This document shows, piece after piece, positions 4,067 to 7,936 of a DNA stretch of 64,000 nucleotides. Positions within the stretch are counted from its first letter, which is position 1. Each line of letters begins with the position of its first letter. The stretch is taken from the NCBI GenBank assembly GCA_937924775.1, contig CALDUT010000018.1, positions 62,001-126,000 on the forward strand, read 5' to 3'. The notes under the pieces were generated by a model. The model made no database searches, had not been told where the DNA came from, and worked only from the letters and a program-made list of their open reading frames with translations. The stretch comes from an uncultured Gemmata sp. Its GTDB lineage: Bacteria; Planctomycetota; Planctomycetia; Gemmatales; Gemmataceae. The translations under genes were made by a program, and so were the position numbers.

Positions 4067-6418
4067 TCACTTCAGCTCCTCGAACGGTTTGTTCATGATG
4101 GGGTATTTCTTCCAGTCTTTGTAGTCGAAGTGCCACCATTCTTCTTCGTAGACGCGGAAACCTTCAGCCTCCATAAGGCGGCGGAGCAAGTCGCGGTGCC
4201 AGCGCTGCCGGGAGGTGCCGCCCAGATAGTCGGGGAACGCCCGATCGGAGAATTCATCGTAGCCGCTGACCATTTCCACCGGTTGGCCGGTTTTCAGCTC
4301 GTACAGCGACACATCAACAGCGCAGCCGCGATTGTGTCGGGAACCTGTCGCCGGATCGGCCACGAAGTTATGGAACTTTTCCGGGGTGGCGTCCCAAAAC
4401 ATCTTGGTGACATACCACGGCCGGTAGGCGTCGTAGATCAACAGCCCGTAACCGTATTCGGCCAGTTGCTGATGCACGCGGGCCAGTGCTTCCGCGGCCG
4501 GTTTCTGCAGATACGCCTTGGCTTGTGTGTAAAACGGTGTGCCCAGGAAGTTGTTGGCGGTGGCGTAGCGGATGTCGAATTTCAGCCCATCGATGGTGGC
4601 CAGATCGACTAATTGCGGCGGGAGAAATTCGCCCATCTCTTGGGGCGGCTGCGCGGCCAGGGCGGCTTTCCGTACCTCGGCGATGGGTTTCACCGGCTGA
4701 ATACGGAATGTGCCGCCGTTGTCGTCAGCGCTTGTGCGCCGGTCCATCACCACGCTGGCCACCGTCACTTTCGTGGCCCGGCCGTTGGCATCGCGGGTGA
4801 AAACGAGCTTTTCACCGTGGTACATGCCGCGATCGGCCGGAAAGGCGAAGACGTTTTCGGATTCCTCCGTCAGCGGGTCGATCTCGGTATGTTCGATGAG
4901 GGCGAACAATTGTCCGTCGTGTTCATAGATGATGAGGGGGAGATGATCCCAGCCGTACTCGCCGATGAGGCCGCGGTATTTGGCCGGGGCCGGGTCCGGC
5001 GGGCTGCGACGCGGGTTCTCTTTGCGGAACGTGGTGGTGCCGATAGTGAGGGCATCGCTGCTGCGGGTCAATTTCGTACCCCATTCCTGGCGATCGTCCA
5101 CCACGAGGGCCTCGCCGAGTTGGCGGAGCCGCAAGCGGGCACCGCCGGTGTTGGTTTGCAGATACAATTGGCCGAAACTGGGAATAAGCTCCAGTGTAGT
5201 CCCGAAAGCTCGGTAGCGGCCCGCAACAGCCGTGATGGCGTCGGCCGTCAGCGGTTGGCTGGTGGCGATTGTCGGCTGGGGCCGGCCGGCTTTGACCGCG
5301 AGCATCTGCCGCAGCGCGTCATTCGCTATGCGATTGGTGACACCGTTGGTCGCATCCCGGGACGACATAACAATCACGCCGAGTTTTTCATCGGGCAATA
5401 GGCTGAAGGTGGTGGCGAAGCCGTAGATGGCCCCGCCGTGGCCGACACGACGCTTCCCTTCGAATTCACTCACCAGAAAGCCCAGGCCGAAGCCAGACTG
5501 AGTTCCTTTGGGGACAAACTGCGGGCGGAACATCTCGGCCAGTGTTTCGGTTTTCAACAACCGCCGCCCCTGCACCGTGCCACCGGCGAAGAGCATCGAC
5601 TGAAACCGCGCTAGGTCGACAACGGTGGAGTAGAGGCAACCGGCTGGAGCCACCCCCAATTCAAATGTCGGTGCGGGGAATTCCTTGCCGTGATAGGTCC
5701 ACATCACCGCGTCGGCCACTCGCCGCTGCAGCGCCGGGGTGAGGACAAACCCGCTTGACGTCATCCCCAAGGGTTCGAGGAGACGGCGTTGCACATACTT
5801 GGCATACTCTTCGCCCTGCGATTTCTCCACCGCGAAGCCAACAACGCCAATGCCGGCGTTGGAATACTTCGTCCGCGATTCTGGCGGATAGACCAGACCC
5901 AAGCCGTTGAGGCTCCGCACGCTTTTTTCCAAGGACGGTTCTGAGGGGTCGAAGTAGTTGCCCACCGGGGGTTCACGGATGAGGCCGGAGCGGTGCGCCA
6001 TCAGCATCCGCAGCGTGATTTTCTTGTCGCCGGGTTGGTAGCGGGGCTGAAATTCTGGGATGTAACGGGCGATATCCGCGTCGATGTCGATCTGGCCTTC
6101 GTCCACCAATTGCATCACGGCGATATCGGTGAAGAGTTTCGACACCGACCCGACACGATAGACCGTCTCCGCGGTTGCCGGGATCGTCCGCCGGCGATCC
6201 TGGAAGCCGAACCCCGCGGCCCATACCACCTGTTGATCGTCCACCAGTGCGATGGAGATCGCGGGGATGGCTTTGTCGTCGAGTTCGTGACGGATGAGCT
6301 TTTCCAAAGCTGCGGCCACCGGGCGATAGGGCTCGGTGGGAGCCACCGTTGGCTGCGCTACTGCTGGAGCGGCGCAACCCAGCACCAGCACCAGTGCAAG
6401 AAAGCGTGCGGAAATCAT
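4067..6418 (-). CDS. Fusion of a beta-lactamase-type serine hydrolase and a VanX-like D-Ala-D-Ala dipeptidase
   Basis: This 783-residue exported protein joins two enzyme folds. Residues about 1-21 form a signal peptide ending in AVA. A class C beta-lactamase/penicillin-binding fold follows (about 30-380), with the SVSK nucleophile motif (S91, K94), the YSN triad (185-187) and a later HGG replacing KTG. A beta-rich linker (about 400-560) resembles the C-terminal extension of such hydrolases. The last 190 residues are an M15D dipeptidase with the zinc motif SRHNRGCAVD and the catalytic EEWWHFDY. Both halves act on D-alanyl peptides, so the protein could trim peptidoglycan stem peptides or salvage D-Ala-D-Ala in the periplasm; that is inference. 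The start at 6418 is the ATG that begins the signal peptide. Confidence 0.88.
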   Translation of the reverse strand: MISARFLALVLVLGCAAPAVAQPTVAPTEPYRPVAAALEKLIRHELDDKAIPAISIALVDDQQVVWAAGFGFQDRRRTIPATAETVYRVGSVSKLFTDIAVMQLVDEGQIDIDADIARYIPEFQPRYQPGDKKITLRMLMAHRSGLIREPPVGNYFDPSEPSLEKSVRSLNGLGLVYPPESRTKYSNAGIGVVGFAVEKSQGEEYAKYVQRRLLEPLGMTSSGFVLTPALQRRVADAVMWTYHGKEFPAPTFELGVAPAGCLYSTVVDLARFQSMLFAGGTVQGRRLLKTETLAEMFRPQFVPKGTQSGFGLGFLVSEFEGKRRVGHGGAIYGFATTFSLLPDEKLGVIVMSSRDATNGVTNRIANDALRQMLAVKAGRPQPTIATSQPLTADAITAVAGRYRAFGTTLELIPSFGQLYLQTNTGGARLRLRQLGEALVVDDRQEWGTKLTRSSDALTIGTTTFRKENPRRSPPDPAPAKYRGLIGEYGWDHLPLIIYEHDGQLFALIEHTEIDPLTEESENVFAFPADRGMYHGEKLVFTRDANGRATKVTVASVVMDRRTSADDNGGTFRIQPVKPIAEVRKAALAAQPPQEMGEFLPPQLVDLATIDGLKFDIRYATANNFLGTPFYTQAKAYLQKPAAEALARVHQQLAEYGYGLLIYDAYRPWYVTKMFWDATPEKFHNFVADPATGSRHNRGCAVDVSLYELKTGQPVEMVSGYDEFSDRAFPDYLGGTSRQRWHRDLLRRLMEAEGFRVYEEEWWHFDYKDWKKYPIMNKPFEELK

Positions 6419-6497
6419 GACCACTGACCCATGGGTCGGAGGACAAAGAAGGGCGCGTATCTCCAGCGAGCCTTCGCCCATCGTTGAAACCTTCGGA

Positions 6498-6529
6498 ACA
6501 CTCCCGGAGTGTACCGATTCGCTCCGGGA
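6498..6529. promoter_or_regulatory. Nested inverted repeats upstream of the serine hydrolase gene
   Basis: The sequence ACACTC-CCG-GAGTGT (6498-6512) is a perfect 6-bp inverted repeat. It overlaps a second pair, TCCCGGAG (6502-6509) and CTCCGGGA (6522-6529). They lie 80-110 bases upstream of the serine hydrolase start, between it and the ArsC-like gene transcribed in the same direction. They could form an operator or the stem of an upstream terminator, but no T-tract is obvious. Confidence 0.3.
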
Positions 6530-6625
6530 AGGGAAAACGATTTTCTAGCAACCACGCATGTGCGGGAACGGTTGGAGGTGGTTCTGCGTGCCGAAACGGG
6601 CCGTTGGTTCGGATAGGCCCCCATG

Positions 6626-6985
6626 TCAACCCCACAGTTTCCGCAATCGCTCCATCAGTTCTTCGTTGAAACCGACGACCAAGGTTCGCCCGATCCGCGC
6701 GGTGGGGGCCCGCAAGTTCCCGGTCGGCCCCAGGAGGTGCCCGCGGAGCGTGGCATCGTCGGGGCGATGGTGCTTGAGGTCGAAAATCTCGATCTTTTTG
6801 TACTTGGCGGCAATGAGAGTGTCGATACCCTCCAGCAGTGCCAGCACTTCATCTGCGCCATAGCGAACTTTGTTCGCGTTGATCGTTTCGGCCACACATA
6901 CCGCTTCTTGCTCAAGGAACCCCTGAGCCTTCTTGCAGGTGGTTCACCCCTTGCGTTCGTACAGCCAGTCGATTGTCTTGGGCAT
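6626..6985 (-). CDS. ArsC-family selenoprotein (TGA read as selenocysteine at residue 14)
   Basis: Read from the ATG at 6985 through an in-frame TGA at 6944-6946, this gene gives a 119-residue ArsC/Spx-like thioredoxin-fold protein. The start MPKTIDWLYERKG is followed by Sec14-T-T-C17, the U-x-x-C equivalent of the family's redox motif, then KKAQGFLEQ. The C-terminal part has the family pattern LLGPTGNLRAPTARIG and LVVGFNEEL. A strong Shine-Dalgarno AGGAGG (6991-6996) sits at ideal distance before this ATG, and reading frame and homology-like sequence continue unbroken across the TGA. A gene call that stops at TGA would leave an 89-residue protein starting at a GTG (6895) without the active site. 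A candidate bSECIS hairpin follows the TGA. Substrate is unknown; a thiol-disulphide or arsenate-like reductase role is inferred. Confidence 0.85.
6910..6928 (-). promoter_or_regulatory. Candidate bacterial SECIS element
   Basis: On the minus strand, 15 bases after the TGA, GCTCAGGG-GTT-CCTTGAGC can form an 8-bp stem (one G-U pair) with a 3-base loop starting with G. The loop G is about 24 bases past the TGA, within the usual spacing for a bacterial SECIS recognised by SelB. It is part of the coding sequence, as bSECIS elements are. Confidence 0.65.
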
Positions 6986-7039
6986 ATTCGCCTCCTGGTG
7001 TGATGGGCCCCCAATCCTTCACCCCCCGTCACCCGCGGC

Positions 7040-7936
7040 CTAACGGGCGGGCAACTCGAGGGTGAAGGTGGTTTCGTCGCGGAACGATTGGCTTGGCTCA
7101 TCATACACGCGACGAACCGCTTGCAGTTCCCAACCGTCGATGGTGTAATCGTGATAACCCCACCGGTGCCGTTGCGTCGAACTGCCGCAACAGATCGCGG
7201 GAAACGGCAGCACCTCATTGGCGGGCAGGTAATACCAGCGGTGCCGGTGACCATGCAACCAGAGGCTGATCCCGCACGCGGCGGCCGCATCGCGGACCTC
7301 TGCCCAATTCCGCAACCGGTGCCAGAACGGTTCTGGCCGGTGATTCTCCATCAACAACGGATAATGGCTGACGACTATCCGCGGCCCGGCGTCGAGCTGG
7401 CGGCACAGTTGCCGGAAAGCGGCCAGTTGCCGGGCTTCCACCCGACCGCTAGCATCCCACGCGAAGGTATTCGGCTTCGCGGAGTTGAGAGCGATCAGCC
7501 ACACATGGCCGACTTTCTGGGCGAAGGGGTAGTCGTCGCCATTGACCCGCTGGCCCACCAACCACGGGGCGAAGGCCGCTGCAAACGACCGCTGGCGAAG
7601 ATTGCGGCGAATGTAAACATCGTGATTGCCAGGCACGGCAATACCCGGCGGCACTCCCGGATCACCAACTCCTAAGCGTTGCACGGCCGCGTGGATTTCC
7701 TGCGGGAAACCCAGAGTGCTGGCATCGCCCGAAAACACCAGATGATCGAAGCCGCGTGTGGCGAATTCGTGCCGGAGAGCGGCCATCACATCGTTCGCCT
7801 CGCGAAAGCGGGCGGCGCGACCCAACATCCTCAGGTTCACCCAACCCGCGGTTCGTTTCGTGAACCAGTCACTCGCCTGCCAGCCCAAGGGCTGAGCGGT
7901 GAGGTGAATATCAGAAAAATGGGCCAAGCGGATCAT
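7040..7936 (-). CDS. Calcineurin-like metallophosphoesterase
   Basis: A 298-residue cytoplasmic protein with all the metal-binding blocks of the calcineurin-like phosphoesterase fold: FSDIHL near the N-terminus, FSGDAS, PGNHDVY, SHYPLL and GHRHRWY. These bind a dinuclear metal centre that hydrolyses phosphomono- or diesters. The overall length and block spacing resemble Icc/CpdA-type enzymes, but the substrate is not readable from sequence. The gene runs away from the SDR gene on its other side and lies 54 bases upstream of the ArsC-like selenoprotein gene on the same strand, so the two may be cotranscribed. Confidence 0.85.
   Translation of the reverse strand: MIRLAHFSDIHLTAQPLGWQASDWFTKRTAGWVNLRMLGRAARFREANDVMAALRHEFATRGFDHLVFSGDASTLGFPQEIHAAVQRLGVGDPGVPPGIAVPGNHDVYIRRNLRQRSFAAAFAPWLVGQRVNGDDYPFAQKVGHVWLIALNSAKPNTFAWDASGRVEARQLAAFRQLCRQLDAGPRIVVSHYPLLMENHRPEPFWHRLRNWAEVRDAAAACGISLWLHGHRHRWYYLPANEVLPFPAICCGSSTQRHRWGYHDYTIDGWELQAVRRVYDEPSQSFRDETTFTLELPAR

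Follow-up and report, generated by a model that had tools for sequence, protein, structure and literature searches.

Does a TGA codon that falls on the active site of an ArsC-like gene end its translation, or is it read as selenocysteine (Sec, U), and if the latter, what might the product do? The question is raised by a gene on the minus strand (6985-6626) of the 64,000-nucleotide stretch of DNA analysed here, from an uncultured Gemmata sp. (which we refer to as the window). Translated directly with TGA as U, the gene is complete, with 119 codons and a product of 119 residues, MPKTIDWLYERKGUTTCKKAQGFLEQEAV...LRKLWG, terminated by a second TGA (6628-6626). The product carries a U14-T-T-C17 motif, in which the in-frame TGA is codon 14 (6944-6946) and the Cys17 codon (6935-6937) presumably supplies the resolving thiol.

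The first-pass annotation had described an ideal Shine-Dalgarno sequence and ATG, a TGA exactly where the family has its first redox Cys, family-like sequence on both sides of it, and an automatic gene call that would start late at a GTG and drop the active site; all four parts of this description, which named no strand, held. On direct reading of the minus strand, AGGAGG (6996-6991) precedes the ATG start codon (6985-6983) with a 5-nt spacer, homologues carry TGA or Cys at the site in 67 of 67 readable cases, and conservation extends to the segment ahead of the TGA (Y9 and R11 in 67/67 rows, W7 in 64/67). In the ordinary list of open reading frames, the sole product in this frame is a truncated 89-aa ORF with a GTG start at 6895 (6626-6895, minus strand), from which the active site is missing. 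With conservation ahead of the TGA and with TGA or Cys at the site in every readable homologue, the frame with its TGA is confirmed as an observation beyond chance. Ordinary annotation would lose the active site of what is predicted to be an ArsC-like selenoprotein of a Gemmata-like genome. A sigma-70 promoter scan of positions 6450-7100 found none, and neither Rfam (at gathering scores) nor ARAGORN gave a match on the window.

TGA and Cys codons at residue 14 across homologues

The window protein matches the NCBIfam model NF041106 (ArsC_rel_Se_1, "ArsC family (seleno)protein") with 132.8 bits, above the curated cut-off of 85. We searched this model in 99 genomes, comprising the window's own genome (G000; 4.79 Mb, 27 contigs, 97% complete) and 98 relatives, and obtained one match each in 69 of them, 68 above cut-off. 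Site counts were made on 67 of these 69 homologues, leaving out a contig-end fragment (G042) and G053, whose N-terminus is unlike the family and lies near a contig end; the model recognises every one of the 67 aligned members at E <= 0.001. Codon 14 is TGA in 45 of the readable homologues (window included) and a Cys codon in the other 22 (TGC in 18, TGT in 4). Alignment of homologues at residue 14 had been proposed with the first-pass annotation as a check, and it shows Cys or Sec throughout with the upstream segment retained. Over the 67 rows Y9, R11, U/C14, G86, P87, G89, P94 and G105 are invariant, and C17 (66/67, Val in one), L91 (66/67) and W7 nearly so; the window protein has Tyr where 65/67 rows have Gly, and otherwise differs in no notable way from the family. 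One Sec homologue (L110; G059, 1235-1294) reads UTTV, and hence is without the resolving Cys.

A second set was drawn from a scan of named genomes, of which we used the best 80 of at least 588 matched stretches. These best 80 carry TGA at the site in 72 cases and Cys in 8; 25 of them repeat the first set, and the non-repeats comprise 51 Sec and 4 Cys forms. Hosts among the best 80 of at least 588 matches are mostly Planctomycetota by record title, the others being Acidobacteria, Rokuibacteriota, Methylomirabilota, Tectomicrobia and Cyanobacteria MAGs. A poorly resolved tree of 122 rows and 104 columns, built with residues 14-26 masked, requires 18 changes of the Sec/Cys label (shuffled mean 23.8), of which well-supported branches by themselves force only 3. 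A family with Sec and Cys forms among such close kin is tractable for asking why selenium is retained.

A SECIS-type hairpin after the TGA

Downstream of codon 14, positions 6910-6928 (minus strand) are predicted to fold into a SECIS-type hairpin, GCUCAGGG-GUU-CCUUGAGC, with an 8-bp stem and a GUU loop (6920-6918); counted from the TGA, its first base is at +16 and its loop G at +24. Bacterial SECIS elements are described as having a small apical loop that contains G (PMC1088965), and the window gene has such a G in a covarying hairpin just after its TGA. The share of pair cells formed across the 45 Sec sequences is 89.4%, versus 81.7% when shuffled and at most 62.8% with the partner slid by 1-3 columns, and double-sided changes occupy 35 cells versus 11.2 when shuffled. 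Most of these changes fall on two pairs, one varying among UA, CG and GC and the loop-adjacent one between GC and AU, whilst further pair types in the same 45 sequences show no excess (10 versus 10.4 shuffled); RNAalifold finds six inner pairs unaided.

This structure follows the Sec forms. At least six of the seven inner pairs are present in 41/45 Sec versus 1/22 Cys sequences of the first set, and in 45/51 Sec versus 0/4 Cys sequences of the second (from the best 80 of at least 588 matches). The loop begins with G in 44/45 Sec versus 9/22 Cys sequences of the first set, and reads GUU in 47 of the 51 Sec sequences that the second set contributed from its best 80 of at least 588. A synonymous-codon control gave a median z of -1.5 for Sec forms, 16/45 of them at <=5%, and of -0.13 for Cys forms, with 2/22. 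The window hairpin on its own is unexceptional in this control, 10.1% of synonymous recodings being equally stable, and the hairpin signal therefore rests on conservation and covariation. The Rfam SECIS_1 model gave no match in the window's genome; since it was equally silent on every control genome, this null is uninformative.

Judged from the aligned sequences, the constraint on the DNA is visible in the protein: AQGFL is nearly fixed in the Sec forms, whose DNA must also form the hairpin (Q21 in 43/45, F23 in 45/45, L24 in 45/45), and drifts in the Cys forms (0/22, 11/22 and 13/22, respectively), so that Sec and Cys forms offer a clean natural contrast after residue 14. In four Sec homologues (L150, L158, L162 and L186) the motif is followed by KR(S/A)D-FLEG, and CTT stands where the others have the GUU loop; folding predicts alternative stem-loops in them, which are possibly another type of SECIS. 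A Cys (TGT) homologue (L050; G050, 1528-1587) retains GGGTTCCTTGAG of the hairpin, which looks like the trace of a recent Sec-to-Cys switch.

Selenocysteine machinery and further in-frame TGA genes

The first-pass annotation had reasoned that its reading requires working selenocysteine insertion and had suggested looking for selA, selB, the selC tRNA and selD; all four are present in the window's genome, with profile matches of 568 bits (selA), 410 bits (selB) and 388 bits (selD) and a tRNA-Sec of 72.9 bits, whose anticodon is TCA according to ARAGORN. Two more genes with in-frame TGA codons were found in this genome. One is SelW-like (L198, G000:C10:99331-99543, minus strand; 60.7 bits versus a cut-off of 34.2), with the motif CSVU and a predicted hairpin with a 9-bp stem and a GUU loop, its first G at +23 after the TGA (+24 in the window gene); AAGGAGG precedes its ATG. 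The other (L196, G000:C11, about 1279-2280) is formylmethanofuran dehydrogenase subunit B (TIGR03129, 363 bits versus 327.8), whose TGA, at 1666, lies within HTSL-U-HGP and is followed by the predicted hairpin GCCGCCC-AGUU-GGGUGGU; by these features it is a third candidate selenoprotein gene of the genome. For this enzyme, one paper describes Sec in planctomycete P2 and Gly in Gemmata obscuriglobus, and credits the latter species with a full Sec-insertion set (PMC4807772); because of that Gly, a Gemmata-like genome with a Sec form deserves notice. The model for formate dehydrogenase alpha had no over-cut-off match in a profile search of the window's genome. We thus have a Gemmata-like genome with a complete selenocysteine system, on which three or more of its genes seem to draw.

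Among the relatives, selB is above cut-off in 37/45 genomes with the Sec form and 15/22 with the Cys form, the latter 15 showing that the protein is kept without need for selenium. The selA search covered the window's genome, the 15 genomes without selB above cut-off, and G053. Seven of the eight Sec genomes without selB above cut-off have selA above cut-off, and G018 (Sec form, 65% complete) has two weak pieces only (37.1 and 30.3 bits). Neither gene is above cut-off in seven gene-bearing genomes, all of which have the Cys form (7/22 Cys versus 0/45 Sec; Fisher p = 0.0002, kinship ignored); the seven are not independent events, because five belong to family f4. Two smaller observations concern individual genomes: G069 (Cys form) has a selA match of 19.6 bits, and G035 (93% complete, 5% contamination) has two selB matches above cut-off (G035:C896 and G035:C1405), which represent a duplicate or contamination.

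Decoding of codon 14

The TGA of codon 14 is almost certainly decoded as selenocysteine, since the genome holds the Sec machinery and two other genes with in-frame TGA, since every one of the 67 readable homologues has TGA (45) or Cys (22) at this codon, since the Sec forms, unlike the Cys forms, have the covarying GUU hairpin, and since the seven genomes with neither selA nor selB above cut-off are all of the Cys form. The same lines of evidence support the TGA-encoded Sec put forward in the first-pass annotation. As for a selenoprotein gene, an in-frame TGA with Cys homologues at its site is found in a genome with selA, selB, selC and selD.

Were the TGA a true stop, the locus would be a pseudogene, or a gene starting at the downstream GTG (6895), and the standard code does yield the 89-aa GTG ORF there. 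However, the codons ahead of the TGA show conservation at the protein level, comparison with the 82%-identical L053 gives 39 silent and 20 residue-changing codon differences, the site is TGA or Cys in 67/67, and the hairpin covaries, so we regard a true stop as highly improbable. Genome-wide reassignment of TGA (for example to Trp), or readthrough as some other residue, is compatible in principle with a frame that is open when TGA is sense, but all 22 non-TGA homologues carry Cys, the gene's own terminator, at the family's C-terminus, is also TGA, and the genome has tRNA-Sec and SelB; we give this reading next to no credence. Pseudogene, stop-codon reassignment and chance were rejected on the conservation ahead of the TGA, the alternation of TGA and Cys, the hairpin and the gene's own TGA stop. 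A selenoprotein gene with a thioredoxin-fold redox product is very probably the best explanation of the locus as a whole.

In the selenoprotein reading, the hairpin just after codon 14 would recruit SelB and Sec-tRNA(Sec), the parts for which are present, and the UGA would be read as selenocysteine in place of terminating translation. The product is predicted to have 119 residues and a thioredoxin fold of the ArsC/Spx/YffB superfamily, the U14-x-x-C17 pair standing at the start of its first helix. If it follows the chemistry of the thioredoxin fold, the Sec14 selenolate would attack an oxidised substrate, which may be a disulfide, a sulfenic acid or a peroxide, Cys17 would resolve the adduct as a selenenylsulfide, and a cellular thiol system would re-reduce it. 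By this analogy the product is probably a thiol/selenol oxidoreductase.

Fold and function of the product

An AlphaFold2 model of the protein (mean pLDDT 93.2, pTM 0.86) has the redox site at the beginning of the first helix. Foldseek searches of solved structures placed Spx chains at the top (best E 2.9e-4, TM about 0.5), and VIA-align gave Z 8.4 for the ArsC-related 3gkx, Z 8.1 for Spx 3ihq, and about 7 for glutaredoxins and a glutathione transferase. As judged from the model, the nearest solved folds (Spx, YffB and ArsC-related proteins among them) place the fold rather than the function. The name "ArsC-family" used in the first-pass annotation is a loose fit: the best structure matches are Spx and ArsC-related proteins, and the window protein falls below the gathering cut-off of Pfam ArsC (PF03960; 17.4 bits, E 0.0055, cut-off 24). 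Spx/YffB proteins share its fold and the placement of CxxC, with Cys where the window protein has Sec, whereas E. coli ArsC has its nucleophile at the equivalent position within CGTS in place of UxxC.

Could the protein nevertheless be a genuine arsenate reductase with a Sec nucleophile? The arsenate site of E. coli ArsC comprises Arg60, Arg94 and Arg107. MAFFT --add pushed the C-terminal half of E. coli ArsC into gaps, and a second alignment was used, in which 23 of the 67 rows are aligned with it. In those 23 rows the Arg94 position is Ala (22) or Ser (1) and the Arg107 position Phe (22) or Cys (1); the Arg60 position is placed differently by the two alignments. Because the Arg94 and Arg107 positions are replaced in the family, arsenate appears an unlikely substrate. 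The sub-threshold Pfam ArsC match speaks for a reductase, as does the name that earlier papers gave to such genes (PMC2398784, PMC1088965). Against it, a profile comparison with E. coli ArsC returns a probability of 11% (E 0.0028, 78 columns), and no cluster of neighbouring genes recurs in more than 9 loci among the best 80 of at least 588 (ORFs of at least 90 aa, up to three per side, clustered but unannotated), so that some loci may hold an ars gene. On balance we consider a genuine arsenate reductase quite improbable. A Pfam ArsC search of the window's genome at E <= 0.001 found no gene; the window protein is itself too weak for that threshold, and the null therefore shows only that no stronger ArsC-type paralogue was picked up.

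The protein could also be a regulator of the Spx type, in which the Sec-Cys pair would sense oxidation and switch RNA polymerase binding. In favour of this, TIGR01617 (Spx/MgsR) matches 61/67 members at E <= 0.001, both profile and fold comparisons put Spx among the closest relatives, and UxxC occupies the CxxC site of Spx. The window protein itself, however, scores 27.2 bits in TIGR01617 against a curated cut-off of 75.05, and Sec is usually catalytic, so we find this reading doubtful. In its boldest form it would make the protein a selenium redox switch and not an enzyme, with a U14-C17 selenenylsulfide controlling transcription in Planctomycetota, which we hold to be a long shot; if true, such a switch would be faster and more sensitive than a disulfide. 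We know of no selenocysteine-based transcription switch.

Earlier records of the family and surroundings of the gene

Selenoproteins of this kind have been recorded under several names. The 2005 Sargasso Sea paper includes arsenate reductase (COG1393) selenoproteins (PMC1088965), and the selenoproteome table of the 2008 Global Ocean Sampling paper has Arsenate reductase 2 (cd03032, UxxC), with Sec in an ArsC-type UxxC as here, a likeness by description only (PMC2398784). A table in a 2022 review contains an arsenate reductase-like UxxC protein (PMC9312934). NF041106 itself is tabulated in a 2026 review as "Arsenate reductase-like protein" with the UxxC motif of the window protein, in a long list of such selenoproteins whose functions that review calls largely uncharacterised (PMC13188914); in the literature collection used here, a full-text search for NF041106 returned this review only. 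Since NF041106 is curated and appears in the table of that review (PMC13188914), the window gene is a fresh instance of an already catalogued family, and the caveat in the first-pass annotation that the protein class may be known was right.

Downstream of the selenoprotein gene, window positions 4067-6481 (minus strand) encode an 804-aa protein in which a Beta-lactamase domain (PF00144) is fused to a D-Ala-D-Ala dipeptidase (PF01427). Upstream of six homologues (L035, L040, L041, L075, L086 and L100), the translated DNA has a common P-K-(Y)-stop word some 15-20 codons before the start, noted by eye and perhaps a sign that these genes share a promoter or operator sequence.
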